This document shows positions 997 through 20,112 of a DNA stretch of 39,932 nucleotides, one piece after another. Where the stretch lies: the NCBI GenBank assembly GCA_028280815.1, contig JANQLC010000016.1:1-39932 (forward strand), given 5' to 3'. The DNA is from Flavobacteriales bacterium. Lineage in GTDB: Bacteria; Bacteroidota; Bacteroidia; Flavobacteriales; JANQLC01. Every line of letters starts with the position of its first letter. Position 1 is the first letter of the stretch. Position numbers and translations under genes: made by a program. Below the pieces are notes generated by a model. That model saw only the letters and a program-made list of their open reading frames with translations, had not been told where the DNA came from and ran no database searches.

Positions 997-2080
997 AATC
1001 AAAGGCGACCGAGTTGTTATAAATCAAGGGTTTCCACCCGCTGGCCTCAGCCAGCCAAATCCCAGTGCCCTAGGGTCAAAAGTTCCGGAATAATTCGTTT
1101 TTGTCCATCGCTTTTCAAATGGATTGGGTGCATTTCAGACTGAAGAGCTATATCCCATAAAACTTACAACCCATGAGGGCAGCGGATAGGCGAAGAGAAG
1201 TTTCCAAAATCAATTTGCCAGGCGAGCATAAAAAATAAGTTTCCTCTTTCAAACCAACTCCCTCAGAGACAAGCGTCAAAAAAATAAGTTCCCCTTTTCA
1301 GACCGACCCAAAAGCGCAAAAAAATAGAACTCAGACACCCGACGTGCCACAGCGGGCAAAAACGAACCGAATCAGGTACAAAAATGAAAAAACAAGAGCC
1401 CTTTTTTAAGTCACCAAAGCGAAACAGAGAAGTAGAGAAGCGCTTTTCAAACCGTCCCCACAGGATGCGGACAAAAGGGTAAGACCAGCCTTTTCAAAAC
1501 GCCTCCCACAGGATGCGGACAAAAGGGTAAGACCAGCCTTTTCAGGCGACTTACAGGAGAAAGACAAAAAATAAAACCAGATTTTTAGCCCCTGACAAAA
1601 GCTAAAACGAGAACCCCTCGACCCCACAAGCCTAAAACAAAAATAGAAGATAAAACAAAGAGCAAGACCCCGCTTTTCAGGCTGACTTCTCAGTATCAAA
1701 CACCAAGGGACAAAACCGACTCTTCAAATTCAAACCCACAGGGACAAACACAAAAGACAAAACCGCCCTTTAAACTGTCAGCCGAAAATAAAAACGCCAC
1801 CTTTCCAAGCGGTTGAGCGGAAATAAAACAGCCCCATCGATCAATCCACCGCCGCAAAGCGGTCTCCCCTACTGCACCCCGTGATACCCCCCTTGTTTTG
1901 AAACTGCACCCGATTCAAAATGGGATAAAAGTGCGTGGGAAACCGCAAATAAAAACAGAGGGCGAACGAGAAAAAATGGACAAAAACCACACCCAAACCG
2001 CATAAGAGGAGATGGCATTTTAAACAACCTATCCATTGTAAACAAATCAGCTTCAAAATTTTGAAAATGATCCCTTTGCC
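997..2080 (+). repeat. Gene-free block of degenerate co-oriented repeats
   Basis: About 1.1 kb without a credible gene. It is rich in A and C on the plus strand and built from diverged units resembling CTTTTCAAACCG, then CCACAGG(GA)CAAA, then an A-rich stretch with AAGATAAG-like ends. The same motifs recur, in the same orientation, in the blocks at 19714-20070, 25345-27970, 35337-36940 and 39014-39932. The minus-strand open frames here are by-products of the T/G-rich complement. A well preserved tandem duplication lies at 1457-1544. Confidence 0.7.
1457..1544 (+). repeat. Tandem duplication, 48-bp period
   Basis: A 40-nt segment at 1457-1496 is repeated without a mismatch at 1505-1544 (period 48). 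Each copy begins CCCACAGGATGCGG and ends GACCAGCCTTTTCA. It is the best-preserved pair of the degenerate family in this spacer, suggesting recent local duplication. Confidence 0.9.
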
Positions 2081-2881
2081 TCACCGCTGTTGGGAGAAGC
2101 GATCGACCTGGCCCCTCAGATCGTCGAGCTCGGTTTCCAGTTCAGACAACTTTTCCGTCAAGTCGGCGTTGGCATCGGGTGCTTTGAATTGCAAACCGAC
2201 TTCCCAATGGCAGATGGTCTGTACATCTCTTGTGTCAATGTCAAAGTTGGGATAAGTACTCCTATCGATATGGTCGCTCATCAAAATCAGCGAATCCCGT
2301 TCTGGAATCTGGTTTTTTATCCTTTTAAAATATCCCTTTCCTTCGGTGTCCACCACCACGCCTACAAACTGTTTGGGCATATCCCGCCATTCGGCTCTCT
2401 CCAGCACGCGCACGATTTGGAGTGAACCGTCTTGAAAGGTGGGGGCCATGGACATGCCTTTGAGGCGTATTGTGACGTGAGCGCCCGATTGTAAGAATCG
2501 GGCGGGGAGTGAGATGAAATCTTTGGTCTCCGCATACGCATCGTTGTAAAGTCCAAAACCGGCCGCAGCGGATACATTGGATACGGGAATAACCTTGTTT
2601 CCCGAAGTGTCTACCGTTTCCACAATGATCTTTTCCCCAGTAGGGGCAGCACGCTTGAGCATGGGTCCCCTTCCGAGGATCAACCACTCGGCACAAACAT
2701 TTGTGAACCGATCGAGTACCAGCTGCAACATTTCTGAATCCGGCTTGTTGCGCCGAGTGGCAATATTGGACATTCTGCCACTTGAAACGCCGATCTCCGC
2801 AGCGAATTTATTCCTGGAAATACTCAGATATTCAATTAGTTGAATAATTCTATCGTTGATTTCAAATCTATTTACTAACAT
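2081..2881 (-). CDS. XRE-type HTH / S24 (LexA-CI family) transcriptional repressor
   Basis: A 266-residue protein. Residues 8-45 form a helix-turn-helix (KFAAEIGVSSGRMSNI). Residues 95-230 are an S24 peptidase domain with the catalytic serine in GMSM (S144) and a candidate general-base lysine in YFKRI (K186). An Ala-Gly bond at A107-G108 lies 36 residues before the serine, matching the LexA/CI self-cleavage geometry. The last 25 residues (LSELETELDDLRGQV) look like a short coiled coil. It should repress the neighbouring tail genes and be inactivated when RecA filaments form after DNA damage; this is inferred from the family. It is transcribed away from the tail operon, with an inverted-repeat operator and divergent promoters just upstream (2885-2937). 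The ATG at 2881 fits the HTH start. Confidence 0.85.
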   Translation of the reverse strand: MLVNRFEINDRIIQLIEYLSISRNKFAAEIGVSSGRMSNIATRRNKPDSEMLQLVLDRFTNVCAEWLILGRGPMLKRAAPTGEKIIVETVDTSGNKVIPVSNVSAAAGFGLYNDAYAETKDFISLPARFLQSGAHVTIRLKGMSMAPTFQDGSLQIVRVLERAEWRDMPKQFVGVVVDTEGKGYFKRIKNQIPERDSLILMSDHIDRSTYPNFDIDTRDVQTICHWEVGLQFKAPDANADLTEKLSELETELDDLRGQVDRFSQQR

Positions 2882-2884
2882 TTC

Positions 2885-2937
2885 TTTGAAATACTCACAT
2901 TTGTTTGTATATTTGTACTGATGTGAGGGTAAATTTA
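2885..2937 (+). promoter_or_regulatory. Divergent operator-promoter of the repressor
   Basis: On the plus strand TTTG (2885-2888) is followed after exactly 19 nt by TATATTTG (2908-2915), a full-consensus Bacteroidota promoter firing rightward with a start near 2922. A perfect 7-bp inverted repeat, CTCACAT (2894-2900) and ATGTGAG (2921-2927), brackets the -7 box, and ATTTGT is directly repeated at 2899 and 2911. On the minus strand TAAATTTA (2937-2930) could be the repressor's own -7 box, overlapping the right arm. Binding at the inverted repeat would occlude both promoters, the usual arrangement for a CI/LexA-type switch. Confidence 0.65.
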
Positions 2938-3063
2938 GTCAAAAATATCCGCGCAAACCCCGAAGCGCTAAAAAATGAATTGAAAAACCTTATGCAATGC
3001 CATTCGTCCACGGGTCGAATAAGCCTGAGGAAAGGGGCAAACCGATATAGAATCCATCGGTAA
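2923..3063 (+). CDS. Possible 46-residue early protein, leaderless GTG start
   Basis: The frame opens with GTG at 2923, within a nucleotide or two of the transcription start predicted from the -7 box at 2908-2915. It encodes a 46-residue basic peptide with an amphipathic stretch (NPEALKNELKNLM) and an Arg/Lys-rich end. It is the first frame after the rightward promoter divergent from the repressor, the place where lambdoid and Mu-like phages keep a small Cro/Ner-type regulator. I do not recognise it, and no helix-turn-helix is clear. The leaderless start is an inference from spacing. It could be a chance frame. Confidence 0.3.
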   Translation: MRVNLVKNIRANPEALKNELKNLMQCHSSTGRISLRKGANRYRIHR

Positions 3064-3147
3064 CGATAAACGACACCCAAAAGTACGAGATCCGATAGAA
3101 CGAAAAAGTGCATGCCGTATTTACAAGTCGATATAAAACCTGAAATT

Positions 3148-3261
3148 ATGGACAAACCAATGGGTAAAAATTACGAGTTTACCGCGGGCCGCCTAGCCGA
3201 TGGTCATTTGGCCAAGTCCCTGAAAATCCTGCGATCGGGCCTGCGCACCACAGGGGGTTGA
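3148..3261 (+). CDS. Possible 37-residue peptide
   Basis: An ATG-initiated frame of 37 residues, beginning MDKPMGKNYEFTAGRLADG, lies on the rightward transcript from the repressor operator. Its composition is protein-like (balanced charge, no low complexity), but it is too short to classify and has no recognisable family. Listed because it fills the otherwise empty stretch between the operator and the first clear small genes. Confidence 0.25.
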   Translation: MDKPMGKNYEFTAGRLADGHLAKSLKILRSGLRTTGG

Positions 3262-3664
3262 CCCCTGCCTAAGCCCACGACCGGCTAGGGATACCGCTCG
3301 AATCCCACCGTCCGTCTCCACCGCTGCCAATCGGCTAAAAGCACGAGCTAAAAGAATCCAAATCGCTTTACAGCCAAGCCCTAGGAAACCCCAAAGACCC
3401 TTCGCAACAATCGGGATTACGGGCAATTGAGGATCGAACCGCCATTCAAAAAACCAATCCCCAAAGCTCGATCACGGGAGGAGTGACAAAAAGAGACAAA
3501 CCAAGCGTTGTGGACGAGCTGCCATGCGATAGCAGGAGACGGGCGGGTCAATTCAAATCGACAAAAAGTCGAAAAAACAGGGCATTGAAGATAAAAAACC
3601 CTTGGAAGCTGGAATGGACAGCTCGAGCCTACCACCACTGAAATCACACAAAGAGCACGACCTT
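3262..3664. other. Stretch without a convincing gene
   Basis: About 400 bp between the operator-proximal frames and the small gene at 3665. A 52-codon frame from GTG 3483 to 3641 lies immediately after a GGGAGGA sequence, but it is very rich in Arg, Lys and Ser and overlaps the next gene's possible upstream start codons, so I do not call it. Nothing else is seen. Confidence 0.5.
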
Positions 3665-3943
3665 ATGAATAGACTGACCTACGTAGAGCGGCTCTGTGCA
3701 GCCTTGCAACACGACACACTGGTGTCCCGCATTTACAGCTGTGATGAGCGCTGGGCGCTACACGGGGAAATCGCCCGTGTAATCCATGGCTATGAGACCG
3801 AGATAAGCCCTCGGATAGCCCTGCCCGAAGGCATTCCGCAGCGACGGCCTTGCCGAATCAACAGCGACCGGCAAACCGAAGTATACGACGCAAAAGACAA
3901 ATGTTGGAAACCGGTGCGCCCCACAGCGAAAACAAGGCAGTGA
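3665..3943 (+). CDS. Hypothetical protein, 92 residues
   Basis: A small soluble protein beginning MNRLTYVERLCAAL, with a helical N-terminal half and a basic tail. It has no recognised domain. The frame stays open to a TTG at 3602 and an ATG at 3614, but the ATG at 3665 gives the most protein-like N-terminus. It is the first of three small rightward genes between the repressor and the structural genes, a position where tailed phages carry regulatory or accessory genes. A role in control of tail-gene expression is possible but not shown. Confidence 0.5.
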   Translation: MNRLTYVERLCAALQHDTLVSRIYSCDERWALHGEIARVIHGYETEISPRIALPEGIPQRRPCRINSDRQTEVYDAKDKCWKPVRPTAKTRQ

Positions 3944-4003
3944 CAGCGATTCAAGCCCGTGCGTACCCCTCGAGAACAACCGAACTCTACAAACCCATAG
4001 AAA

Positions 4004-4378
4004 ATGTACAGTCCCCTAGATCTGAGCGAAAGCAGCCTCGAAGAAGTGCAGCCCCATGAGACATCGGAGTTAGCAGGCCATCGGGCGTACGAGTACTTTA
4101 AAAACGGCTGCGAGCTAGATGAGATGTACCCCTTGCAACCGCTCGAAGACCAAATGGTGGGCCACACGAGGCACAACATAGAAAACAACAGCGAGCTGGC
4201 GCTTGCGAAAGCCCGAAAAGCCTTGGAAAAGGCTAAAGCGCTCGAGGCGATTCAGTTGACCCAGGGCGCCAAATGGGTGCGTGAAGGAGCGGCCACCTGG
4301 ATATTGCGCAAGGCGCACGAGAAGAAGCGCAAGCGCGTAGCCCGGTGCGCGTTAAAGCAGCTGTCGAGCACGAGATAA
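4004..4378 (+). CDS. Hypothetical protein, 124 residues
   Basis: A charged, largely helical protein. The N-terminal half is acidic (MYSPLDLSESSLEEVQP). The C-terminal half is a strongly basic helix, ALAKARKALEKAKALEA, followed by a KKRKRVARC-like tail, so it may bind nucleic acid. No family is recognised. The stop codon overlaps an ATG at 4378 that opens a frame of only 25 codons, which I do not call. It sits between two other small genes on the same strand, 60 bp after the previous one. Confidence 0.5.
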   Translation: MYSPLDLSESSLEEVQPHETSELAGHRAYEYFKNGCELDEMYPLQPLEDQMVGHTRHNIENNSELALAKARKALEKAKALEAIQLTQGAKWVREGAATWILRKAHEKKRKRVARCALKQLSSTR

Positions 4379-4490
4379 TGGAAGGGCTACAGATTGGAAT
4401 CCGAGGAAAACAGCTGGGATTTTCAGCCGCTCACCACGCCGCTCGGCAGGGATGAAAGCATTTTTTTGTGAAACCCCAACCTCCTATACC

Positions 4491-4670
4491 ATGCCCAAAT
4501 TGAACTCGACCAAAAAGAGGCACGACATCGTGCGTCGCAACTTTGATTCGTTGTGCAAGCGGCATCCGCAATGGCGCATAGATGCCTTAATCGAAAAAAC
4601 GCATCAGCGCACCGGCTACGCCACCCGAACGATCGAGGGCATCTTACGCGGCGAATTCGAACGGGATTAA
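4491..4670 (+). CDS. Small HTH-like prophage protein
   Basis: From the ATG at 4491 the product is 59 residues, starting MPKLNSTKKRHDIVRRNFDSL. An in-frame ATG at 4452 would add 13 residues of unlike character. The pattern, a basic N-terminus, then 'RFxxLxxxxP.WRIDALIEKT', then 'TGYATRTIEGIL', resembles small conserved proteins of Bacteroidota prophages and mobile islands that end in a helix-turn-helix-like 'xxLSxxTIxxIL' motif. A DNA-binding regulatory role is plausible; this is family resemblance from memory, not a verified match. It is the last rightward gene before the leftward pair at 4716-5529. Confidence 0.5.
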   Translation: MPKLNSTKKRHDIVRRNFDSLCKRHPQWRIDALIEKTHQRTGYATRTIEGILRGEFERD

Positions 4671-4715
4671 TCCCCTTTTGCCACGTGCCCATTCGATGGG
4701 CTTAGCGATCCATTT

Positions 4716-5132
4716 CTAAAAGACGAAACGCCGTTTCAATGGGTTGTAAATCCGAGTTTCAAAATCCAAGCGATAGGCCAGCATCTGGCATTTTCGGCTG
4801 ATGGACTGTTCTCCTTTTTGGGATAGCGGCTTAAATCGCTCAGACCGCAGCCATTGAACGGCCTCTACGACCGCATCTATGAGGCTCAGACCGGCGAGTC
4901 CCTGCCCCATATAGAGATAAAGCGAAACCACAGCCCGCCCTTCTTGCAGCTGCTGCATCCTATCGACATAGTTTATGGAACTGATTTCCATTAGACAGGC
5001 GGGCAAGGGTATGGCGTTTTTGGACCCCGATTCCTCAAACTGCCCTTTTTGCCAATCGAAAAACCGAATGTCGGGGATCGTTGCGACTCGCGCTCTTACC
5101 TCATAAAGCAATTCTCGTCTTACACTTGTCAT
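4716..5132 (-). CDS. Putative tail terminator/completion protein
   Basis: A 138-residue protein. Its N-terminal helix (MTSVRRELLYEVRARVATIPDIRFFDW), the 'PLPACLMEI' strand and the later 'GRAVVSLYLY' strand resemble the small proteins that cap or terminate tail tubes in Bacteroidota tailed phages, typically 'ELxxxlkxxLxxIPEIKxVxxw...P.PavlieF'. A terminator sets the end of sheath and tube polymerisation, which a headless particle would need. It is leftward, 70 bp downstream of the gp25/W-like gene and presumably co-transcribed with it, divergent from the sheath operon. The assignment is by pattern and context only. Confidence 0.45.
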   Translation of the reverse strand: MTSVRRELLYEVRARVATIPDIRFFDWQKGQFEESGSKNAIPLPACLMEISSINYVDRMQQLQEGRAVVSLYLYMGQGLAGLSLIDAVVEAVQWLRSERFKPLSQKGEQSISRKCQMLAYRLDFETRIYNPLKRRFVF

Positions 5133-5202
5133 CGGGCTCTTTTACATTTTTTCCGCCGTGTATCGGTTGCCATTCACCGTCCCTTTGAGGTGTGCCAGCC
5201 CC

Positions 5203-5529
5203 TCATTCATAAGTGGCATCCACATAGATTTTGCCATCGGCCCCATAAGCCAAGGTAACCACGCGCATGCCGTCGTATTCAAAATTCCGCTCAGCTTTGA
5301 TGAGCAAGGCTTTGGGGTTTTCTCCGTTCAGTTCGTCTGCGATGCCCACACCGATTTCCGGTGCGGCTTTGTACGCACCCTTATGAGCGATCAGCAGGTG
5401 CCTTTGATGCTGCGTGGCGCTCTCCCCAACTTGAAAGTCGAACTCCTCAGCCCCCTTAGCCGGAAGCCGATCGCCTGTAACCCCCTGTAAGAGAAAAGCC
5501 CCTTCGCCATCGACCAATATGTCTCGCAT
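5203..5529 (-). CDS. Putative gp25/W-like baseplate wedge protein
   Basis: From the ATG at 5529 the product is 108 residues. The second half shows 'HKGAYKAAPEIGVGIADEL ... DGMRVVTL ... GKIYVDATY', the signature I associate with the small gp25/gpW-like baseplate proteins of Bacteroidota phages (G-E/Y-x-K-x-x-P-x-x-G-V-G-I, then DGM-x-V, then a last strand IDAxY). No other gene in the island looks like gp25/W, so this fills that gap. The frame stays open to a GTG at 5712, but that start would leave only 6 bp to the divergent sheath gene and would erase the promoter region, so 5529 is preferred. Transcription is leftward from a CACCTTTG box at 5548-5541. Confidence 0.5.
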   Translation of the reverse strand: MRDILVDGEGAFLLQGVTGDRLPAKGAEEFDFQVGESATQHQRHLLIAHKGAYKAAPEIGVGIADELNGENPKALLIKAERNFEYDGMRVVTLAYGADGKIYVDATYE

Positions 5530-5540
5530 CTCTTTTAGGG

Positions 5541-5571
5541 CAAAGGTGGCACAGGCTGGACTCAGAGAAAA
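5541..5571 (-). promoter_or_regulatory. Putative leftward promoter of the W-like gene
   Basis: On the minus strand CACCTTTG (5548-5541) is preceded after 19 nt by TTTT (5571-5568). This is one base off the -7 consensus TAnnTTTG and one base off the -33 TTTG. The predicted start, near 5535, gives a very short leader to the ATG at 5529. The same octamer is used by the divergent sheath promoter. Confidence 0.4.
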
Positions 5572-5642
5572 TTCTGTAAACAGATCCCGTAGCACAGCCC
5601 GCGCATTTCGGTAGGGATAGACCCCAAATCCTGTTTGGCGAT

Positions 5643-5673
5643 TTTGGTAAGCCGTTTCGCGTTTGCACCTTTG
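5643..5673 (+). promoter_or_regulatory. Putative sheath-operon promoter
   Basis: TTTG (5643-5646), exactly 19 nt, then CACCTTTG (5666-5673): a consensus -33 box with a -7 box differing from TAnnTTTG only in its first base. The predicted start is about 5680, 40 nt before the sheath ATG at 5719. The non-consensus -7 box is identical to the divergent one at 5548-5541, hinting at shared control of the two arms. Confidence 0.5.
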
Positions 5674-5718
5674 ACCCGATGTAAAATCACCCGAACCGAC
5701 AAGACAAAACACGATGAT

Positions 5719-6915
5719 ATGGGATTACCGAAGGTAGCGATAAAATTAGAAAGTGATCGACTCGGCCAGCCCCCCCAGACCGATGACGGCATGGCCGGCA
5801 TGATAGTAAGCGGCGTGACAACCGCTACGGGAAAGATCGGGATCGCTGAGCCGAGACAATTGTTCAGCTTAGGGGATGCCGAAAAATTGGGTATTAAACC
5901 GAGCGGAAAAAACGCCTTTGCGCACGGCCAAATCCGCAAATTCTACGAAGAGGCCTCGTCCGGCGCAGCGCTCTGGGTTATGCTCGTGGATGCTTCGGTG
6001 AGCATGGAACAAGCCTGCGACCTACGGGGCGACTATGCGCCGGCCTTGGAAGAAGCTTCACAGCGGCAGATCAAGCTGTTGGCCGTATCTACCCAAACGA
6101 CCCCTGCCAGCCCAAGCCTGGTGAGCGGTCTGGATGCCGAGGTTTCAAAAGCCGTCGTAAAAGCCCAAGCCCTGGCGGCGCATTACGCCAAAAATTACAG
6201 ACCCTTTCGGGTTGTACTGGACGGTAAAAACTTCAGCGGCAAAGTCTCCGAGCTGTATGGGTATAACGAAGACGACAAAAATCGCGTCTGCATCTTTTTG
6301 TGCAATGACAACGCGAGTAAAAACGCCGATGTAGGCACCCTAGTCGGGCGTGCAGCCGCCTTGCCCGTACAGCGCAATATCGGGCGCGTGAAAGACGGCC
6401 CCTTAAAGGCGTTAAAAATGTACTTTACCGACGGTAAGTCCATCGAAGCGCACGAAGACGAATGGAGCAGCATCCGCGACAAAGCCTATATCAGCTGTAG
6501 AACCTATGCGGGCAAGCCGGGCTACTTCTTCACCGACGATCCCACGCTGACCTCAGTCACAGACGATTACAACAGCCTGGCCAGGGGACGAGTCATAGAC
6601 AAAGTCATCGAGCTGACCTATACCACTTATGTGACGGAGTTGCTCGACGAAATCCCTTTGAAGGACGATGGGACGATTAACCCCGCCCTGATCAAAGCCT
6701 GGCAGAACGAGATTGAAAACGCGATTGACCTCGCGATGACCGCAAATGGAGAAATCAGCAGCGCAAGGGCTTATATCGATGAACACCAACCGATACTGCA
6801 AAGCGGTAAAATACAGATCGTCCTGCGAATCCTGCCGGTGAGCTACAGCAAGTTTATCGAGGTACACCTGGGCTTCGACACAAATGTAAACCCGCTTAAA
6901 AAAACGATCGAATGA
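5719..6915 (+). CDS. Contractile tail sheath protein (DUF2586-like)
   Basis: A 398-residue protein from the ATG at 5719. The frame is open further upstream to 5635, but the N-terminus MGLPKVAIKLESDRLG fits the family and leaves room for the promoter. The pattern (GLPxVxIxLxxxxLGxxxxTxDGMAGMIVSG near the N-terminus; IGxAEPRQLFSLxDAExLGI around residues 40-60; RDKAYISCRTYAGKPGYFFTDDPTL near 255-280; ERGRVIDK-like ARGRVIDKV near 290) is that of the Bacteroidota sheath family annotated as DUF2586. The sheath wraps the tube and contracts to drive it through a target envelope. The stop overlaps the tube gene's ATG by 4 nt (ATGA), implying translational coupling. It is the first gene of the rightward structural operon. 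Confidence 0.85.
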   Translation: MGLPKVAIKLESDRLGQPPQTDDGMAGMIVSGVTTATGKIGIAEPRQLFSLGDAEKLGIKPSGKNAFAHGQIRKFYEEASSGAALWVMLVDASVSMEQACDLRGDYAPALEEASQRQIKLLAVSTQTTPASPSLVSGLDAEVSKAVVKAQALAAHYAKNYRPFRVVLDGKNFSGKVSELYGYNEDDKNRVCIFLCNDNASKNADVGTLVGRAAALPVQRNIGRVKDGPLKALKMYFTDGKSIEAHEDEWSSIRDKAYISCRTYAGKPGYFFTDDPTLTSVTDDYNSLARGRVIDKVIELTYTTYVTELLDEIPLKDDGTINPALIKAWQNEIENAIDLAMTANGEISSARAYIDEHQPILQSGKIQIVLRILPVSYSKFIEVHLGFDTNVNPLKKTIE

Positions 6916-7328
6916 CTACTTTTAACAGCAGACAATACGGATGGTGCGATGTGAGCATTGCCATCCATGGACGCGTGATCACGGGAGCCACGGGCTTCAA
7001 ATCCACCGTGAAGCGCAAAAGGGAGCGCTTGTATGGCAGAGGGGCCAAAGCCTTTGACATACTCGATGGCAACGTAGAAGCCGAGGGCGAAATTTCCCTT
7101 TGGCAATCCGACTTAGCGGCCTTGGTAAAAAAAGCACCCGATTCAGATATCACACGGATGAAATTCGATGTGGTCGTATCCTATTCGCCCAGGGACAGTT
7201 ACCAAGTGGTGACCGATATATGGAAGGGGTTCTGCCCGACTGAAAACACCCAAGGGCTCAAGCAGGGGGATACCCATATGGAAGTGACGATTCCCGGCCT
7301 AATCCTCGATGTCAAATACAATCAATAA
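6912..7328 (+). CDS. Tail tube protein
   Basis: A 138-residue protein directly after the sheath with a 4-nt ATGA overlap, the position and size expected for the inner tube subunit of a contractile tail. Its sequence looks like the beta-rich tube fold: 'WCDVSIAIHGRVITGATGFKST' for the first hairpin, 'EAEGEISLWQSDLAALVKKAP' for the central helix, and a final strand 'MEVTIPGLILDVKYN'. The tube is ejected on sheath contraction, and its hexameric rings are counted out by the tape measure. Only one tube gene is present, as in phages and R-type pyocins; classical eCIS loci usually carry two or three. Confidence 0.75.
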   Translation: MTTFNSRQYGWCDVSIAIHGRVITGATGFKSTVKRKRERLYGRGAKAFDILDGNVEAEGEISLWQSDLAALVKKAPDSDITRMKFDVVVSYSPRDSYQVVTDIWKGFCPTENTQGLKQGDTHMEVTIPGLILDVKYNQ

Positions 7329-7334
7329 ACGGAA

Positions 7335-7622
7335 ATGACAAACTCAGAACAAATCCAACAGTGGAAAGCCAAGTATGGCGAGGTGTTTCAAGTGGAAGTA
7401 GCGGGCCATAGAGCCTATCTGAAAAAGCCCGATCGAAAAACCCTCAGCTATGCCATGACCCAGGCGCAGACCAATCCCCTCGGATTCGCTGAGGTGATTC
7501 TAAGAAATTGCTGGCTCGCTGGAGACGAGGTGATTCAGACCGACGACAGCCTCTTCCTAGCCGTCAGCAGCAAGTTGGACGAACTACTCCAGATCAAGGA
7601 GGCCGAGCTAAAAAAGCTGTAG
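7335..7622 (+). CDS. Tail assembly chaperone, short form (gpG-like)
   Basis: The zero-frame product is 95 residues, beginning MTNSEQIQQWKAKYGEVFQVEVAG and ending EAELKKL before the TAG at 7620-7622. It is small, acidic and helical, and lies between the tube and tape-measure genes. That is the place of lambda G/T and of the corresponding pairs in myophages and R-type pyocins. Such proteins coat the tape measure during tail assembly and are absent from the mature particle. The last codons contain the slippery heptamer of a programmed -1 frameshift, so a minority product extends to 7804. Identification rests mainly on gene order and the frameshift signature. Confidence 0.75.
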   Translation: MTNSEQIQQWKAKYGEVFQVEVAGHRAYLKKPDRKTLSYAMTQAQTNPLGFAEVILRNCWLAGDEVIQTDDSLFLAVSSKLDELLQIKEAELKKL

Positions 7623-7804
7623 CGGATTCGGATGGCAGCCCCGAATCCAATTGGATCAGCTATATGGATACCGTCCTGGCGTATTACCTCGGCATCGATC
7701 CGCAGCCGCTGAGCGATGCGGAATGGGCAAAAAAGCTAGCCCAGCTAAAGGACATCCGACAAAGAGAGGCCCAAGGCGAAGCCGCGCTCCGATCCGCTGA
7801 ATAA
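7335..7804 (+). CDS. Tail assembly chaperone, frameshifted long form (gpGT-like)
   Basis: A -1 slip on A AAA AAG at 7610-7616 moves ribosomes into the overlapping frame, which is open to the TAA at 7802-7804. The join is residue 94 (Lys) followed by AVADSDGSPESNWISYMDTV, giving 156 residues in total. The added 62-residue domain contains an aromatic 'YMDTVLAYYLGIDPQPLSDAEW' stretch and a charged helix, comparable in size and nature to the T domain of other tail chaperone fusions. No good start codon would let this domain be translated alone, which supports frameshift expression. The ratio of short to long form normally matters for tail assembly. Confidence 0.8.
7596..7648 (+). promoter_or_regulatory. 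Programmed -1 ribosomal frameshift cassette
   Basis: Three elements in order: an internal Shine-Dalgarno AAGGAGG (7596-7602) 7 nt before the slip site; the slippery heptamer A AAA AAG (7610-7616) in the correct zero-frame phase (ctA AAA AAG); and, after a 7-nt spacer that holds the zero-frame stop, a perfect 8-bp hairpin GGATTCGG (7624-7631) / CCGAATCC (7641-7648) with a 9-nt loop. This is the same architecture as E. coli dnaX. Confidence 0.85.
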
Positions 7805-7864
7805 ACGCGCTCCAAACCCTGGAAAAAAGACCTCCTCAGACCCTCAAAAATAAAAACCGACCCA

Positions 7865-9337
7865 ATGGCGACAGCCCAAAGCAAGGCAAAGCATTTCAGT
7901 CAACCACTCTCCATACCCGACCTCCTGGGCAGCAAACTGCTCAAAATAGTCCATACCGCTCAGAACGCCTCGGGTCAGATCCATTCGAGTGGGGATAAAT
8001 TTCGCCGACAAAACAAACCGAGCAGTTTAACCGGCGAGATAAAAACCCTATACGAGCGTTTGAAGCCATGGGCTGCGGTAGTCGAGAAGCTGATCGATGA
8101 TGCAAAGATGGTAAAAAGCACATGGGAATCCTTGGGCTCAGGTGGACTGGGTGACAAATTAAAAGGGCTGTTTTTTCGTTTTAAACAGTGGCATCCAGCA
8201 GTCGGTAAGCCGGTAAGCGATACAAAGCAGGCAAAAGCGATAGGGAATGCCCTGGGCTCAGGGGGCTTGGCGGCAATCGAGAAGTTAATCGCCGGTGTAA
8301 AGGATTTAAAAAGGCTGTGGAATTCCTTGGGTCAAGGTGGCTCAGGCGCAAAATTAAAACGGCTTTTGTCCCATTTTGAGCAGCGGCATGGGCTAACCGA
8401 GGTAAAGGCTATTAAAAAGGGATTAACCCAAGTGTCGAATCGCTGGGTTCAGAACGGTTTAATCGGAAAAGTAAAAATCTTTTACAGCCATTTGAAGCCG
8501 TGGATTCAGCTCGTCGAGAAGTTGGTCGCCGGTGTAAAGGATTTAAAAAAGCTAGGCAATACTTTGGGTCAGGGTGGTTTGGGTGACAAATTAAAAGGCC
8601 TTTTATCCCGTTTTGAGCGGTGGGGTCCGGTGGCCGAGGTGCGCAGCCTTATAGCGGATGTGAAAGAGCTATGGAGCGCCTTGGGCTCAGGGGGCTTGGG
8701 CGCCAAGCTAAAAGGCTTGTTTTCCCATTTTAAAACATGGCGTCCAACAGCCAAAGCGCTAGTCGGTGAGGTAGCAGGGCTGAAAAACCTATGGGACGCC
8801 CTGGGTCGAGGCGGTTTGGGCGTCAAGTTAAAAGAGCTCTTTTCTCGTTTCAAGCGCTGGGGCCCGATAGGTGGCGAGATCAGCCGTCTGAGGAATCTGA
8901 AAAGCGCCTGGGGCGCTTTGGGTCCAGGGCGCTTGGGCGCCAAACTAAAAAGCCTCTTTTCCGGTTTGCGAAAGGCAGGACCCGTATCCACTGCAGGGAT
9001 TCCCGCAGAGATATCCAACCGATTTCCGTATGGTTCAATGCGCGGACGGCATGGGTCGAAGAACTGGAATCGGGGATCGAGGTGCCAAAGCGCGCGAGTA
9101 GCCACAGCCGGGCAATCCACAGGTGCCCGTGATGGGGTACCCTATCGAAATGATATAGCCGCCATTACCGGCGGTGGGCAGAAGTCGATCTACATAAGCC
9201 TAAATCTGGAAAAGCTTCAGGACAAAACCGAAATCCACACCGCTACTTTTCAGGAAAGCCTCGACGAGATGGAGGAACGCGTCAAAGCGGTCTTGCTTGA
9301 CGTACTGCACAGCGCCAACCCAATCACAGCGGTATGA
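7865..9337 (+). CDS. Short, repeat-built tail tape measure protein
   Basis: A 490-residue protein. The N-terminus, SIPDLLGSKLLKIVHTA, recalls Bacteroidota tape-measure starts. Residues 61 to about 395 consist of 39-40-residue repeats of the form (G)LFSRFKRW-GP-x(10)-VKDLKxLWxALGxGGLGxKLK, about eight copies, some shortened or diverged. The C-terminal 95 residues (from about 396) are different, and end in a helix typical of a hub-binding tail. Tape measures span the tube lumen and set tail length; at about 1.5 Angstrom per residue this one implies a tail of roughly 70 nm (estimate). No transmembrane segment is evident. It follows the frameshifted chaperone pair and overlaps the next gene by 4 nt. 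The repeats would let length change by unit gain or loss. Confidence 0.8.
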   Translation: MATAQSKAKHFSQPLSIPDLLGSKLLKIVHTAQNASGQIHSSGDKFRRQNKPSSLTGEIKTLYERLKPWAAVVEKLIDDAKMVKSTWESLGSGGLGDKLKGLFFRFKQWHPAVGKPVSDTKQAKAIGNALGSGGLAAIEKLIAGVKDLKRLWNSLGQGGSGAKLKRLLSHFEQRHGLTEVKAIKKGLTQVSNRWVQNGLIGKVKIFYSHLKPWIQLVEKLVAGVKDLKKLGNTLGQGGLGDKLKGLLSRFERWGPVAEVRSLIADVKELWSALGSGGLGAKLKGLFSHFKTWRPTAKALVGEVAGLKNLWDALGRGGLGVKLKELFSRFKRWGPIGGEISRLRNLKSAWGALGPGRLGAKLKSLFSGLRKAGPVSTAGIPAEISNRFPYGSMRGRHGSKNWNRGSRCQSARVATAGQSTGARDGVPYRNDIAAITGGGQKSIYISLNLEKLQDKTEIHTATFQESLDEMEERVKAVLLDVLHSANPITAV

Positions 9338-9921
9338 ATCGGCTTGAGATACGACAACTCAGCGCGCGGGCACACGGTTATACCGGCGAGCGCTTCCCCA
9401 TAGGGGCAGGGAGCATATCGATAAAGGGCGTCGGGCAAAGCGCGTCCGGTTTGAACCATTTGGGCAAGCCCTACTTCATGGACTTCTTCGTCCGCTCGGG
9501 TGGGGTGAATCAACGCTTGCCCAACGAGCCGCTGGTAAGCCTAAGCGGACAGAATCGGATCGTGAAGACGGTAATCGTCGGAGGAGACCGCAGCGGAACC
9601 GTCAAGGAATGCATAGGCGCCGACGATTGGAAGATCAGCCTCGCCGGCATATGTATAAACGCCGAAGCCCCTTTGGCATATCCTTACGAACAAGTGGAAC
9701 AGCTCAAAGGGCTCAAAGAAGCACGCGGCAGCATAGGGGTTGAAAACGACTTGTTGCGCCTCTTCGGCATCTACAACATGGTCATTGAGAGCCTGTACCT
9801 CGACGATATGATCGGCATCCCATACGCCCAAAAATATAAGATAACAGCGCTGAGCGATGAAGACTTTCTGGCCGAGCGGAAAAGTGAATCGCGTGCGCGC
9901 GCCCTGGCAAAAGGCCTGTGA
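9334..9921 (+). CDS. DUF6046-like tail/baseplate protein
   Basis: A 195-residue protein between the tape measure and the hub, a position taken in Mu by the gp43 (N) protein and in other tails by LysM-type hub adaptors. The sequence features GIGAGSISIKG, an 'RTVKTVIVGGDRSGTVKE'-like stretch (IVKTVIVGGDRSGTVKECIG), 'DDWKISLAGICIN' and 'PLAYPYEQVEQL'. These match the Bacteroidota phage family I know as DUF6046; the family name is from memory. It probably links the tape measure or tube end to the hub. It overlaps the genes on both sides by 4 nt, so it is part of a translationally coupled chain. Confidence 0.6.
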   Translation: MNRLEIRQLSARAHGYTGERFPIGAGSISIKGVGQSASGLNHLGKPYFMDFFVRSGGVNQRLPNEPLVSLSGQNRIVKTVIVGGDRSGTVKECIGADDWKISLAGICINAEAPLAYPYEQVEQLKGLKEARGSIGVENDLLRLFGIYNMVIESLYLDDMIGIPYAQKYKITALSDEDFLAERKSESRARALAKGL

Positions 9922-10901
9922 CGTTCGTTTTACAAGCCCATATCGAAATCGGGGATTACAGCTTCAGCGAGGTACAGGGGCTGAAGATCACCCGAAGCGT
10001 GGATTCAATCTGGGATACCGCCGTGATCGAGCTGCCTGCGACCTTCGTTTTAGGAGACGGGAAAAAGGGCTTTCAAAAATCGAGAACCACCGATGCGATT
10101 GCGGTGTCGAACCGCGTATCCATCCGAATCGGCTATGCGGACCTGATCGATCGCACCGAGTTTGTGGGATGGATCACCGCCATACAGCCCAACGTACCCG
10201 TAACCATCCACTGTGCGGATAACACCTGGATTCTCAGACGAAAAAACTGCAACAAAAATTTTGTAAAAACCAGCCTCCGCGAAGTGATGGCATACATCTT
10301 AGCAGGGCAAGAAGCCCTATCCCTGAGCGAACGCATACCCGAGCTGCCCATGGACAAGTTCATACTAAAAGACAAAAACGGCTTACAAGCCTTACAGCAG
10401 TTGAAGCAAAGCCTGCAGCTCAGCATTTTTCTCGACGACCAGGGCGCGCTCTTCGCCTGTTCTCCACAAGATCAGCCCTTGGGCAAAGCGGTGGACTACA
10501 AAATCGGCTACAACGTCATCCGCCACGACTTAGAATTCAAAACCCAGGCACAGGCTGGAGTCAGCGTAAGGCTAATCGGCACGACGGCTGAAAACCGAAC
10601 GACGACCGTCGAGCAAGGGGATCCCCAAGGCGCGCGATACACCTGGCACCAGCCAAATCTGAGCGATGCAGCCGAGCTGGAAAAAATAGCCGCAAGCCAA
10701 CTCAGCGCGCTCCAATACGAGGGCTACCGCGGCACCCTCACCAGCTTTCTCATCCCCTTTGCCGACAGGGGTATGGTTGCCAATCTGCGCGACGAACGCT
10801 ACCCCGAACGGGCGGGTTGCTACTTCATACCGAGGGTGGACATCAGCTATGGTATAAATGGGGGGCGCAGAAGGGTAGAACTCGGAAGGAAGGTATCATG
10901 A
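9918..10901 (+). CDS. Tail hub protein (gpD / Mu gp44-like)
   Basis: A 327-residue protein with a GTG start at 9918 overlapping the previous stop. It resembles the phage late-control D / gp27-like hub fold: an N-terminal beta barrel ('SIWDTAVIELPAT', 'VSIRIGYADLIDRTEFVGWITAI'), a middle domain ('SLREVMAYILAG', 'GLQALQQLKQSLQLSIFLDDQGALF'), and a C-terminal barrel ('GVSVRLIGTT', 'YRGTLTSFLIPF'). The hub adapts the six-fold tube to the three-fold spike and nucleates the baseplate. It is followed at once by the spike gene (4-nt overlap), the same order as Mu gp44-gp45 and P2 D-V-like pairs. Confidence 0.75.
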   Translation: MTFVLQAHIEIGDYSFSEVQGLKITRSVDSIWDTAVIELPATFVLGDGKKGFQKSRTTDAIAVSNRVSIRIGYADLIDRTEFVGWITAIQPNVPVTIHCADNTWILRRKNCNKNFVKTSLREVMAYILAGQEALSLSERIPELPMDKFILKDKNGLQALQQLKQSLQLSIFLDDQGALFACSPQDQPLGKAVDYKIGYNVIRHDLEFKTQAQAGVSVRLIGTTAENRTTTVEQGDPQGARYTWHQPNLSDAAELEKIAASQLSALQYEGYRGTLTSFLIPFADRGMVANLRDERYPERAGCYFIPRVDISYGINGGRRRVELGRKVS

Positions 10902-11470
10902 GCGGATTGGACAGCCGATTGCAACGAGCCTTACAAGGCCTCAGCTTTAGAGAAGGGGCAATCTTTCCAGCTGTAGTCCAGTCCGTGAACAAGACCGACA
11001 AAAGCCTCAGCGTCGTCGATGCCCAGGCGCTCGAATACCCCGACGTACGGCTTACCGCCACCCTGAGCGACAGGGATAAGATCGCCGTCTATCCCCGAGT
11101 CGAGAGCTCTGTGCTCGTCTCCAAAATAGGGGGCAGCGACAACACATTGGTGTGCATCGCCTACAGCGAGGTGGAAGCCGTCGAAGGACAGCTTGAAGAG
11201 ACGGCTTTTTCAATCGACAAGGCGGGGGTTCACATCGAACAAAACGAGACGAAAATCTCAATCGACAAGGGGGGCTTTCACCTCAAACGCAAGGGTAAAA
11301 ACCTGTACAACACCTTGGAGAAACTCTTTGGATCCGTGCAGTCCCTCTGCGATGAAACAGCCAAAATCGTCGTATCCGTAGGCACTACGGTCGACATCCC
11401 CGCCGTGAATCGGATCAGGCAAAACATTGAAAATACAGTGAAGAGGGATTTAAACGATATTTTAAACTAA
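10898..11470 (+). CDS. Baseplate spike protein (gpV / Mu gp45-like)
   Basis: From the ATG at 10898, just after a purine-rich GGAAGGAAGG and overlapping the hub stop, the protein has 190 residues. An upstream start at 10817 would overlap the hub by 84 nt and is less likely. An OB-fold-like N-terminal domain (GAIFPAVVQSVNKTDKSLSVVDAQ) is followed by alternating short strands, FSIDKAGVHIEQNETKISIDKGGFHLKR, typical of the trimeric beta-helix shaft of puncturing spikes. The C-terminus is helical. It would form the membrane-piercing tip. No separate PAAR-repeat tip protein was seen in the island. Confidence 0.75.
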   Translation: MSGLDSRLQRALQGLSFREGAIFPAVVQSVNKTDKSLSVVDAQALEYPDVRLTATLSDRDKIAVYPRVESSVLVSKIGGSDNTLVCIAYSEVEAVEGQLEETAFSIDKAGVHIEQNETKISIDKGGFHLKRKGKNLYNTLEKLFGSVQSLCDETAKIVVSVGTTVDIPAVNRIRQNIENTVKRDLNDILN

Positions 11471-11607
11471 TGGTCTTAGGCAAAAGCATATTGGAACAGC
11501 GTTTAAAGGGGAAATCGTGCCATCTCGATGGTACAACCCAAAACGCCGACCCCTTTACAAAAGACCCAGCCACGGGAGCTCAGTCGGCAAACAACACGGT
11601 GCGGTGA
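11470..11607 (+). CDS. Small unknown protein, 45 residues
   Basis: The ATG shares its A with the spike stop (TAATG at 11468-11472), and the TGA at 11605-11607 lies 1 nt before the next ATG. This tight packing on both sides makes a real gene likely although the product is only 45 residues. It is hydrophilic, beginning MVLGKSILEQRLKGKSCHLDG and ending in a Thr/Asn/Ala-rich segment. No family is recognised; a small tail-tip or assembly peptide is possible. Confidence 0.45.
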   Translation: MVLGKSILEQRLKGKSCHLDGTTQNADPFTKDPATGAQSANNTVR

Positions 11608-11608
11608 G

Positions 11609-11944
11609 ATGAGAGATTTTTTCCAAAAATACCTGGGCGAGCTGCTCACAGCTGTTATAGGCGGCTTTGCAGGCTGGTTTTTTCAGCGCCGGATGAAGCG
11701 GGCTGCAGTCCATGCCGCTCAGGCGGACAACCAGCAAAAGATTATGGACTTGTACCAGGAGGCTTTAGACGATTTGGAGGCGCGATACGAAAAGCGGTTG
11801 GCTTTTTTAAAGCGGGAATGCGACGAGCGATTTCAGTCCTTACAAGCTGAAATCAAAGCCTTGAAACAAAACTTGGAGCGCTGGAAGCAAAAATACCGCA
11901 CTTTGAGGCGCGCAGTTGAAGACGACAAAGCGAAGCAGCCGTGA
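11609..11944 (+). CDS. Single-pass membrane protein with coiled coil, holin/spanin-like
   Basis: From the ATG at 11609 the product is 111 residues: a short N-terminus MRDFFQKYLGE, one hydrophobic segment LLTAVIGGFAGWFF (about residues 12-25), a basic stop-transfer RRMKR, then a long charged coiled coil to the end. In Bacteroidota tail loci, proteins of this build lie between spike and LysM genes. Candidate roles are a holin or spanin for cell lysis and particle release, or a membrane anchor. No endolysin is recognised nearby, so the lysis role is unproven. It overlaps the LysM gene by 4 nt. A longer frame from 11528 exists but would overlap the 45-residue gene. Confidence 0.5.
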   Translation: MRDFFQKYLGELLTAVIGGFAGWFFQRRMKRAAVHAAQADNQQKIMDLYQEALDDLEARYEKRLAFLKRECDERFQSLQAEIKALKQNLERWKQKYRTLRRAVEDDKAKQP

Positions 11945-12246
11945 AGATAAGCGTACAGCCCGGGCAAAACCTATGGGATCTATGCCTGCAACACACCGGC
12001 ACCCTGGCAGGCCTATTTGACCTGGCCTTAGCCAATGGCCTCAACCCCACCGATACCCTTAGGCCCGGCCAGCGGCTCGAGCTGCCCGACGACATAGCAA
12101 TCGATGCGGATATGCGCGACTATTTCCGAGTCCACGCCATCGAGCCGGCAACGGCGCTGACCCAGGCACAATTGGATTACAGCGATCCCAAAATCGGCAA
12201 TATGATCATCGGACAAACTTTTAAAATTGGGTACAATGGCAGATGA
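11941..12246 (+). CDS. LysM-domain tail protein
   Basis: A 101-residue protein from the GTG at 11941, overlapping the previous stop. Residues 3-48 form a LysM motif: VQPGQNLWDLCLQHTGTL, LFDLALANGLNPTDTLRPGQ, LELP. The rest is a short hydrophobic-ended tail. LysM proteins of contractile tails bind peptidoglycan or, as in P2 gpX and Afp7-like proteins, act as the glue between tube and baseplate. It sits between the spike region and the large fibre gene, whose ATG at 12236 lies inside its 3' end. A structural rather than lytic role is favoured because there is no catalytic domain. Confidence 0.7.
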   Translation: MKISVQPGQNLWDLCLQHTGTLAGLFDLALANGLNPTDTLRPGQRLELPDDIAIDADMRDYFRVHAIEPATALTQAQLDYSDPKIGNMIIGQTFKIGYNGR

Positions 12247-14050
12247 GATCATGAGAAGTAGGGCGATCAGTTGGCTCCAAGACGGTTGCAAGCCCCAGGG
12301 TGCGCAATTCGCTGCGATTATGAACGCGATTTTTTTCAAGCAGGACGGCCAGCTGATCACCCGAGCCGAAACCGCAGCTGACGGCGATGTGGTACTCACG
12401 CTTTCCAGTGGTGAATCGCTCACCATCGAGAAATTCAAATTGAAAAGGCTGGGCCTATCCGATATCGAAGGTTTAACCGACGCCTTGGCGCAATGCGTAC
12501 ACCAGGTGGATGGCAAGCAGCTCTCCACCCATGACTTTTCGGATGCCTGCAAGCAAAAGCTCGAAAGCCTGTCCAACTATCAAAAGCCCATTGGCGAGCC
12601 CATCGGCTATATCGCAGGCCTGCAACAAGCCTTGGACGACAAAGTCAGCGCCGAGCAATTCCAACAGGGCTTGGCGCCCAAAGCAGACATCGAAAGCCTA
12701 AGCGCCTATGCCCAAGCCGACGCGGGCAACCTCGGTGCGGACGAGCTCGAATCCTGGCGCATGCGCCTCGATTCTTTTAACGGTGAAATACCCGTGGTCA
12801 GCGATCGGGAATCCATCACGCTCACCCCCGAAAAACCGCATGTGAGCTATACCGGCAGCTTTGCCGAGCCCGTAGTGGTAATCGCCTTCGACGCCGCTGC
12901 GCCCAATACGCAGGTCAAGCACATCATCCACAACCAAAGCGAACGCATGCTCAGCATCAAGGTGAGCGATGGCCTGCGCATAGACGGCCGAGCCGAAAAG
13001 CAGCTGGCACCCCATACGGGAACCCTGATCAGCCCCGAAACAGCCCCCGATGGCAGCATTGCCGGATTCGGCTCCTGGGGGGCCAACAGCGAACAGTGGC
13101 TCCGGCTCGACGCATCCAATGCCAGCCCCGAACTCGACTCGTATTTTCAATCGCTGATAGACTCGGACACCACCGCCGACGGCATGCGCATCACCGGGTT
13201 TACCACCCCTTTGCTCGCGCAGAATTCCACCCAAACCCTCACCCTATGCGGTACAGGACTCCGCACAAGGCGCGCGCTATCCTTTGTGATCTGCGGTGAA
13301 GATAGACGAGAACTCGACCCCGAGCTGATCCGAGTCATCCGCTGGGATACCAGCGATTCCAGCCGAGAACTGTACGTAACCCTTTGCGCCGGCTCCGCCC
13401 CCCAGGATGAGATGAAAGCCACCGTTGAGCTGTTGTGTAACAACAAAGCCGTACAGGGAAGCGCTGCGCTCTGCCTATTTAAAGAAAGCGCGCTGACAAC
13501 CATACCGCGAGCGGCCTGGAAGGTCTATACCGAATTGGAGGAATCGGCTTACGACATCGCTGTAACCGCTGAGGGCATCGACTACAAGGGGGGACAAAGC
13601 GCCGACTTTCAAGTAGCCGCTACGGCGCCTGACATCGCTTTCTCAGCCGCAGAAGACTACTGGATCACCGCAGGCTTGCAAGTGGGGCAAAGCCCAGGCC
13701 AATCCGCTGCCCTCTCCTTTGGCCTAATCCCCCAAACGGATTATATTCCCAACGCCTGTTACCTCGATATGCGCTTGGGCCTAACCCTATGCGCCGATGG
13801 GAGCGAGGCCCATATCACACCCCTGTATAAGGGTCATCCCGAACGGCGCATAAGCATCCCATACGATTTTCCCGTCCCAATTCAGATCCTGAAAACCGGC
13901 GCGGAATTCAGCCTACACCTGCCAAACGCCAATGGGGCTGTACATCGCTTTAAGAAGTATCCCAGTGCAGCGCAATCGGAGGTTTTGATCCCAAAGCTCT
14001 GCTTCCGGAATCCAGGCAGCTTAGACCACATATCAATCCTGAGATTTTAG
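12236..14050 (+). CDS. Large fibre/baseplate-associated protein
   Basis: A 604-residue protein beginning MADEIMRSRAISWLQDGCKPQ at the ATG 12236, overlapping the LysM gene by 11 nt. The N-terminus ('WLQDG-x-KPxxxQFxxIxNxIFFKxDG') followed by spacer helices with 'GLSDIEGLTDAL' and 'GYIAGLQQALDDK' is the usual opening of Bacteroidota phage fibre proteins. The body is beta-rich with Ig-like stretches ('ITLTPEKPHVSYTGSF', 'RALSFVICGEDRRELD'), and no enzyme motif is visible. It is probably a long fibre or baseplate-extension protein. There are no transmembrane segments. Function beyond that is unknown. Confidence 0.6.
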   Translation: MADEIMRSRAISWLQDGCKPQGAQFAAIMNAIFFKQDGQLITRAETAADGDVVLTLSSGESLTIEKFKLKRLGLSDIEGLTDALAQCVHQVDGKQLSTHDFSDACKQKLESLSNYQKPIGEPIGYIAGLQQALDDKVSAEQFQQGLAPKADIESLSAYAQADAGNLGADELESWRMRLDSFNGEIPVVSDRESITLTPEKPHVSYTGSFAEPVVVIAFDAAAPNTQVKHIIHNQSERMLSIKVSDGLRIDGRAEKQLAPHTGTLISPETAPDGSIAGFGSWGANSEQWLRLDASNASPELDSYFQSLIDSDTTADGMRITGFTTPLLAQNSTQTLTLCGTGLRTRRALSFVICGEDRRELDPELIRVIRWDTSDSSRELYVTLCAGSAPQDEMKATVELLCNNKAVQGSAALCLFKESALTTIPRAAWKVYTELEESAYDIAVTAEGIDYKGGQSADFQVAATAPDIAFSAAEDYWITAGLQVGQSPGQSAALSFGLIPQTDYIPNACYLDMRLGLTLCADGSEAHITPLYKGHPERRISIPYDFPVPIQILKTGAEFSLHLPNANGAVHRFKKYPSAAQSEVLIPKLCFRNPGSLDHISILRF

Positions 14051-14052
14051 AT

Positions 14053-14778
14053 ATGAAGGAGCAGAAGACCTATAAAGCCGCCCGCTTTTTCGGCCGAGCG
14101 GCCACCGAGCGCCCCCAACCGATTTGGTTTTTAACCGCAGTCAGACCCTTGTTTCGGGATGCGACCCTGTGCGATTGGCGAACCGGGCTCCCACAAAGAC
14201 GAGTATATTATATGGATGCAGCGCACCGCATACCCATAGCGAGAGAAGTCTGGGATTGCGATTTGGAAAAGCGACAAGTGGTCAAAACCTGGCATTGGGC
14301 TATCGGTTATGGCGAGGATTGGGAGGTGGCTGATCCGGTTTCGACCGCTCACCCCCCAGCTGTATTTGAAAGCCTGTTGCAACAGGGGCGGCAGCAAATC
14401 CTAAACCATCTGATGGTACGGGCCCGACAGGCCTTGGGCGTCGAAGCGGATAAGGCGATCAGCCTGCTTTACAGCCGCTACCAGCGGGAACTCCTCAGCT
14501 GGAAACAATGCGGCATAGCCGCTGCTTTTCACCGAGCACTCGATGCCGATGCCGCGCAAAGGGAAGAAGGGGAAGAGCTGGCGGAAAGCCAAGGGGAAGA
14601 AAGCGAACAAAAGGAAGCAGAAGCCGCCCCACAGCGCGAACGAGCCACATGCGAAAGCGAGCAAAAAGAAGCAGCGGACATCAGTGCGATTCTAAATCAG
14701 CCCCTGAGCTGTGAAGAAATCCCAGCCGGACTCAAAGGCAAAAAAGTAATCGACTACCTAAAATACCACATCCGATAA
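14053..14778 (+). CDS. Unknown protein, first copy of a tandem paralogous pair
   Basis: A 241-residue protein that starts 2 nt after the fibre gene stop. The N-terminal 150 residues (YKAARFFGRAAT, YYMDAAHRIPIA, VVKTWHWAIGYGE, LESLLQQGRQQILNHLM-like) are nearly the same as in the next gene. The middle (about 170-205) is a low-complexity Glu/Gln/Ala linker, and the end is 'IPAGLKGKKVIDYLKYHIR'. No family or catalytic motif is recognised. It is rich in Trp, Tyr and Arg, unlike a fibre. Its place inside the tail operon suggests a particle-associated or cargo protein, but that is inference only. Compared with the second copy it lacks the last 55 residues. Confidence 0.65.
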   Translation: MKEQKTYKAARFFGRAATERPQPIWFLTAVRPLFRDATLCDWRTGLPQRRVYYMDAAHRIPIAREVWDCDLEKRQVVKTWHWAIGYGEDWEVADPVSTAHPPAVFESLLQQGRQQILNHLMVRARQALGVEADKAISLLYSRYQRELLSWKQCGIAAAFHRALDADAAQREEGEELAESQGEESEQKEAEAAPQRERATCESEQKEAADISAILNQPLSCEEIPAGLKGKKVIDYLKYHIR

Positions 14779-14810
14779 AAGCCCAACATCCGCATAGACA
14801 AATCGCAAAT

Positions 14811-15719: not shown

Positions 15720-15720
15720 T

Positions 15721-16611: not shown

Positions 16612-16623
16612 TCCTTTAAAGCG

Positions 16624-17076
16624 ATGTACTTATTGATAAACCAACCTGTTCCTTTAATCGGCGGATTTTCCGAGAAGCTGACCGAGACTGAAAAGAAAGT
16701 CTTTGTGCACCGTAAAATCGATGTGGATGCCTGTAAAACCGCCTGTAATGCCATTGTAGCGAGCCAGGGCAACAGCTACCTCGTTGCAGATGAAAGCGAA
16801 ATCAAGCAACTCTACAGCCATGATAAAGAACTTTTCTTTACCCTGCAGGGCAAGATATTGCAACCCCTTGCCGCCAGCCAAAGCGTCAAACAATACGATG
16901 CCTTACAAAGAGAAATAGGTCAATACAAAAAGCTGCTACGAGATACCGACTGGACGGTGGTCAAATGCTTGGAGCTCGGTATAAAAGTCGGTGAAAAATA
17001 CCCTGAAATACACCGGCAAAGAACTAAGGCCAGGGCGCAGATCAACAAAGATGAGCAACAGATGAACGAGCGCTAA
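16624..17076 (+). CDS. Putative tail fibre assembly chaperone
   Basis: A 150-residue protein 12 nt after the fibre gene. The C-terminal third, 'YKKLLRDTDWTVVKCLELGI' then 'IHRQRTKARAQINKDEQ', follows the 'LxxTDWxVxKxxE...xxRQxxRxxI' pattern at the end of tail-fibre assembly proteins such as Tfa/gp38-type chaperones. The N-terminal part (MYLLINQPVPLIGGFSEKL) is not recognised. Such chaperones trimerise the fibre tip and often move together with it, which fits the atypical tip encoded just upstream. Assignment is by pattern and position. Confidence 0.5.
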   Translation: MYLLINQPVPLIGGFSEKLTETEKKVFVHRKIDVDACKTACNAIVASQGNSYLVADESEIKQLYSHDKELFFTLQGKILQPLAASQSVKQYDALQREIGQYKKLLRDTDWTVVKCLELGIKVGEKYPEIHRQRTKARAQINKDEQQMNER

Positions 17077-19713: not shown

Positions 19714-20070
19714 GTTCTAATTGTATGGCGTACAACACACAGTACGGAAAGTCTTTATCCCCAGGCCAAAGCGACGTTCTAAGCAGTCGATCGCTTATTT
19801 TTACGCCAGCTGGATGGGTAAGCAAAACGACCCGTTCTCTTTGAACGGTTTAATCTTCGGATTATCGCAGAGACAAATACCCGATAGAATCCTGTAACCA
19901 AAGGGCGCAAAACAAAAATAAAGCCCGACCTTTCAAACTGAACCCCACAGCATAAAAAAACAAGCCCAGCTCTTCAAGCCAGCTCAGCCAAGCAAATCGT
20001 TCCAAAGTAAACGAAAGCGACGCAACCCATCCAGGCTAACACAAAGCCAGGGCCCACCGCTCGGTTCGGG

Positions 20071-20101: not shown

Positions 20102-20112
20102 CCATCTGAAAT

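Follow-up and report, generated by a model that had tools for sequence, protein, structure and literature searches.

Frameshifting in tail chaperone genes was reportedly described in 2004 by Xu, Hendrix and Duda for lambda gpG/gpGT and for its counterparts in long-tailed phages. The lambda slip site is G GGA AAG. Frameshifts of the gpG/gpGT type in long-tailed phages have been reviewed (PMC5009743). The locus analysed here lies in a stretch of 39,932 nt from a Flavobacteriales bacterium (contig JANQLC010000016.1 of assembly GCA_028280815.1; hereafter the window), and it resembles lambda in having a short chaperone gene between the tube and tape measure genes, with a predicted -1 shift near its end that adds a T extension. 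It differs from lambda in its A AAA AAG slip site, its downstream hairpin and its upstream Shine-Dalgarno (SD)-like motif, and in being part of a Winoviridae-like contractile tail in the Bacteroidota; no sequence match was found between the window proteins and lambda proteins.

An SD-like sequence, A AAA AAG and a downstream hairpin occur in the same order in E. coli dnaX, an unrelated gene whose shift product is the shorter one, whereas in the window it is the longer; unlike E. coli, the host of the window has ribosomes that sequester the anti-SD. The original prediction called the cassette dnaX-like, which is apt for the list of parts and less so for the gap between SD-like element and heptamer, 7 nt in the window and about 10 nt in dnaX, or for AAGGAGG, which is not conserved in full among homologues and is the least conserved element. 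The same puzzle of anti-SD access arises for another Bacteroidota gene that contains an SD-like sequence, Flavobacterium johnsoniae prfB, where in contrast the shift is +1, the SD gap is short, the role is cellular autoregulation, and frameshifting has been measured and is inefficient even though the internal SD is perfect (PMC8710568, PMC12421855). Insertion sequence elements of Amoebophilus asiaticus, likewise a Bacteroidota host whose only tRNA-Lys is UUU, have a predicted -1 shift at A AAA AAG, followed after 5 nt by a stem-loop; these are transposase genes, and an SD-like element is not discussed in the accessible parts of that report (PMC3196728). The frameshift mechanism is already known in phage tail genes, and the window gene is a new, well-supported case with a dnaX-like parts list. 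In a literature search of partial coverage, no published description of a frameshift for this chaperone family was found.

The genome that contains the window is 1.59 Mb and 92% complete, and it falls in the order of Tenacibaculum, the Flavobacteriales, in agreement with the assignment to Bacteroidota that had been made from the letters of the sequence. The features that concern us are the following.

5635..6915, + strand, tail sheath (DUF2586; PF10758, 2e-49; phrog_907)
6912..7328, + strand, tail tube-like protein (phrog_9206, 7.6e-27; phrog_4579, 1e-5; gene order)
7335..7622, + strand, gene G in the zero frame, 95-aa gpG-like tail assembly chaperone (phrog_19076, 3.8e-38)
7596..7602, + strand, SD-like AAGGAGG, 7 nt upstream of the heptamer (GAGG at 7599-7602)
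7610..7616, + strand, slippery heptamer A AAA AAG, in phase (AAA 7611-7613 in frame with ORF 7335-7622)
7616..7804, + strand, T domain in the -1 frame, 62 codons plus stop (TAA ending at 7804)
7617..7623, + strand, spacer CTGTAGC, 7 nt, containing the zero-frame stop TAG 7620-7622
7624..7648, + strand, hairpin GGATTCGG-ATGGCAGCC-CCGAATCC, perfect 8-bp stem with a 9-nt loop
7865..9337, + strand, likely tape measure protein, assigned by position only

Gene G sits between the tube gene and the gene in tape measure position, and baseplate hub genes lie farther downstream. Its match, phrog_19076, is a family of unknown function. The predicted structure of G is confident (AlphaFold, pLDDT 94); its best fold match in the PDB was an uncharacterised Bacillus protein (3fgx, E 2e-3), followed by a weak match to the HK97 tail assembly chaperone (2ob9, E 0.43), and some of its BFVD fold matches carry the name tail assembly chaperone. 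The T domain, predicted to consist of two helices, had no family match in a profile search, and the putative tape measure product had none in PHROG and Pfam profile searches. That product is a short protein in which LGxGGLGxKLKxLxSxF.RW-like units recur. Winogradskyella phage Peternella_1 has the identical order of sheath, tail protein, G, gap and tape measure, the last annotated as such, and the order in Flavobacterium phage pippi8-1 is similar; both phages are Winoviridae. The order of sheath, tube, G/GT and tape measure and the weak HK97 fold match both fit a tail chaperone of the lambda gpG/gpGT type. Neither phage record carries a frameshift annotation at the G/T position, and tail chaperone T domains appear to be missed or split in the annotation of Bacteroidota phages.

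The signal from 7596 to 7648 reads AAGGAGG-CCGAGCT-AAAAAAG-CTGTAGC-GGATTCGG-ATGGCAGCC-CCGAATCC, with the zero-frame stop one codon after the heptamer, and predicts a G-T fusion of 156 aa with the junction ...ELKK-AVADSD. The elements, coordinates and counts of the original prediction, from AAGGAGG, heptamer, spacer and 8-bp hairpin to the 62 codons and 156 residues, proved exact. Taken singly, the parts of the signal are uncommon, not extraordinary. The heptamer A AAA AAG occurs in phase three times in 6736 window codons, and directly before a stop only at 7610-7616; the window contains two copies of AAGGAGG. Among 20,000 shuffles, 34 had a perfect stem of 8 bp or longer beginning 3-12 nt downstream, as had 0.3% of the positions in the window, and the folding energy of the window hairpin is unremarkable (-12.4 kcal/mol, z -0.75 against dinucleotide shuffles). 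The case against chance is conservation in homologues.

On comparative grounds, we consider it very probable that the gpG-like chaperone gene of this Winoviridae-related contractile tail module ends in a programmed -1 frameshift. Most ribosomes would stop at TAG 7620 and release the 95-residue G. In a minority, paused by the hairpin at 7624-7648, the lysyl-tRNAs on AAA AAG would slip back by one base to pair with AAA AAA, and 62 further codons would be translated to give the 156-residue fusion; the SD-like element may have a stimulating role. Comparative sequence supports the slip site, the -1 coding and the hairpin. By analogy with lambda, we infer the ratio of products and the chaperone action: tandem tRNA-Lys slippage would occur at a low level, leaving G in excess over GT, and G would coat the tape measure protein while the T part recruits the tube protein (PMC5009743).

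Conservation was examined in about 465 locus entries, some of them duplicates, that were drawn from phage records, IMG/VR, named genome contigs and whole genomes. A search of viral contigs with the single G protein as query gave no matches, and excessive diversity made a 12-row alignment unsuitable as a search pattern; narrower alignments succeeded. In one of the latter an unknown residue of L109 was omitted, and that alignment was used solely as a query. Slip sites were counted in 227 non-redundant loci, which share less than 85% identity and have a -1 ORF of 35-110 codons. An A-site slip A_AAN lies exactly one codon ahead of the stop in 196 of the 227, a set in which the -1 ORF requirement favours frameshift-type loci yet does not favour a fixed slip site. 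The most frequent heptamer was A AAA AAG (92 loci), followed by G GAA AAG (30), A AAA AAA (17) and G GTA AAG (13). Substitutions past the stop in close pairs numbered 478, 281 and 1177 at -1-frame positions 1, 2 and 3, and this third-position excess indicates that the -1 frame is translated and constrained. In E. coli, slippage on AAG involves the tRNA-Lys with anticodon UUU. In the window's own genome a single tRNA-Lys, UUU, was found (30 of 31 tRNAs read, the remaining one having the length of a class II tRNA). Z_ZZN tetramers also shift in E. coli, where A_AAA_AAG is among the most efficient heptamers (PMC4066793).

With a fixed slip site, a constrained -1 frame, a covarying hairpin and a consistent gene order, the central claim of the original prediction, that a -1 frameshift yields the T-like extension, is well upheld. 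It had counted loss of the heptamer and downstream frame from close homologues against itself, and no such loss was seen there. The window's genome has another homologue of the chaperone gene (L047; G000:C17:23887-24198, minus strand), which ends GTA AAA AAG CTG TAA and has a different 8-bp stem, CCGCTTCC-GCTT-GGAAGCGG, at the same 7-nt spacing. Five loci from one genus of the family of Tenacibaculum (L035-L039, genus g3) have a G that ends KPVKVEIL and lacks the slip site; the shifted frame is not open in four of the five, and the long -1 frame of L036 does not resemble T. These loci possibly represent loss of the frameshift.

A rival reading dispenses with the frameshift and has T translated on its own from an internal start codon, for example ATG 7664. 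That codon does exist inside the T domain, and in the pippi8-1 record a short ORF of its own is annotated where T lies, but such starts are not conserved: of 236 loci, only 100 have an ATG among the first 24 T codons, and only 9 have a -1-frame start ahead of the slip site, where the window has a single ATG, GTG or TTG (TTG 7508). A separate start would also leave the fixed slip site and hairpin unexplained; we regard it as very improbable. In some bacteria transcription can slip at A runs, so the frame could also be changed by RNA polymerase and not by the ribosome. Many homologues, however, keep only a short A_AAG (G GAA AAG, G GTA AAG, A ACA AAG), and the covarying hairpin stands at ribosomal spacing, so that we rate slippage by the polymerase slightly lower still than a separate start and retain the ribosomal -1 shift.

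The evidence for the hairpin comes from the family. Predicted structure is strong in folding windows that start 2-5 nt past the heptamer (mean z about -0.9 over 85 thinned loci, 20 of them with z < -2), with a mean z of -1.39 at A AAA AAG loci versus -0.41 at other slip sites. The geometry of the window hairpin, with its 7-nt spacer, 8 bp and 9-nt loop, recurs in L459/L460 (GGATTCCA/TGGAATCC) and in L436 (GGACTCAA/TTGAGTCC), which differ from the window by compensatory changes at stem pairs 4, 7 and 8; this recurrence with compensation suggests that the hairpin was probably selected as a structure. In many further members another stem lies close to that position, many homologues have no obvious strong stem, and a strict count of stems of at least 6 bp gave no clear enrichment (10 of 110, with controls at 1-15). 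A second peak of predicted structure, 36-44 nt past the heptamer (mean z -0.88 to -0.97, 85 thinned loci), is absent in the window.

Since AAGGAGG follows from the peptide Lys-Glu-Ala, the SD-like element was tested through codon choice, with codons numbered from the stop and expectations drawn from the codon usage of each locus plus a pooled next-base effect. At codon -7, G-ending codons for Lys, Glu or Gln before G were found in 53 of 79 loci against 32.0 expected (z 5.2, Weeksellaceae excluded), and for Glu alone in 44 of 65 against 27.0 (same exclusion). In an earlier set, with both groups together, this was the largest signal of 74 gene positions, whose z-scores are overdispersed (sd 1.4). 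The bias persists when loci are thinned to less than 40% identity (13/17 versus 6.6), and the ends of other genes show the opposite bias. For these reasons the site probably shows a preference for GAGG at the nucleotide level, and we rejected the peptide as a full account of the motif. At codon -8, where AAG would complete GGAGG, no preference was seen (37/93 versus 34.5), and codon -5 showed a weaker bias.

Whether such an element acts during elongation, in a phylum whose ribosomes sequester the anti-SD at initiation, was asked by the original prediction; the question had been raised before for F. johnsoniae prfB (PMC8710568; PMC12421855), and our counts sharpen it. We consider it possible, if rather less than an even prospect, that the anti-SD of the elongating ribosome pairs with GAGG or AAGGAGG and raises frameshifting despite that sequestration, as an addition to the -1 shift described above. 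The strength and robustness of the bias at codon -7 and its reversal at other gene ends speak for this addition, and GAGG is a proven stimulator in E. coli when 6-17 nt ahead of the motif (PMC4066793). Against it stand the indifference at codon -8, the inefficiency of prfB shifting in F. johnsoniae and the presence in the host of a bS21 with Tyr at position 54 (numbered from the second Met), a residue whose mutation in F. johnsoniae raises translation of strong-SD messages (PMC9976891). The bias also persists in Weeksellaceae, whose 16S tails have UCUCA or UCUCU in place of CCUCC (22 genomes and one further; a UCUCA anti-SD has been reported, PMC8710568). There the thinned count was 9/12 versus 3.3, and Glu alone gave 5/14 versus 3.5 at a looser cut, small numbers in both cases. 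The expectation that an altered anti-SD would abolish the GAGG bias was not borne out, and because the numbers are small and GAG still pairs with CUC, these loci give no decision on anti-SD pairing. The 3' end of the host 16S was not present in the assembly, and an uninformative search of that genome at up to 2 mismatches found no prfB motif. The 16S 3' anti-SD regions of L053 (CCTCATTT), L054 (ACTCCTTA) and L056 (TCTCATTC), from families f88, f81 and f92 of the same order, indicate that the anti-SD varies in the Flavobacteriales beyond Weeksellaceae.

More broadly, we hold just as tentatively that elongating ribosomes of Bacteroidota may use the anti-SD tail at a slippery-site pause and that phage genes may carry selected SD-like stimulators. 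If true, such stimulators would have been selected in a phylum whose ribosomes largely ignore the SD at initiation. The family amounts to a large, naturally replicated set of putative -1 sites in a phylum with a sequestered anti-SD, and as a data set it makes the availability of the anti-SD during elongation pausing testable.

One protein family appears to use several slip sites, and a different frame in a sister clade. The members of that sister subfamily (L041, L043, L046, L048, L486, L488, L492-L499, L504, L505 and L508) have a G that ends FFRA, encoded by GAR/GAC TTT TTT CGY GCN TAR. Their -1 frame is closed, the +1/-2 frame is open for 57-59 codons, and substitutions by +1-frame position number 574/323/1359, so the subfamily is likely a +1 or -2 frameshift version.

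The core genes of Winoviridae include those for Clp protease, neck, major capsid, sheath and phage protein D (PMC8776804). Sheath and hub genes are present in the element around the tail module, short of that core set, and no capsid, portal, terminase or protease was found in it; the tail module appears related to Winoviridae, and the core genes found do not support membership of the whole element. The element occupies window positions 1000-20300, adjoins a tRNA-Asp at 920-996 and is followed by host genes. It encodes an S24-type repressor (2081-2881, minus strand) together with tail, baseplate, holin-like and tail fibre genes, and by its content it may be a remnant or a tailocin-like contractile particle that lacks a head.
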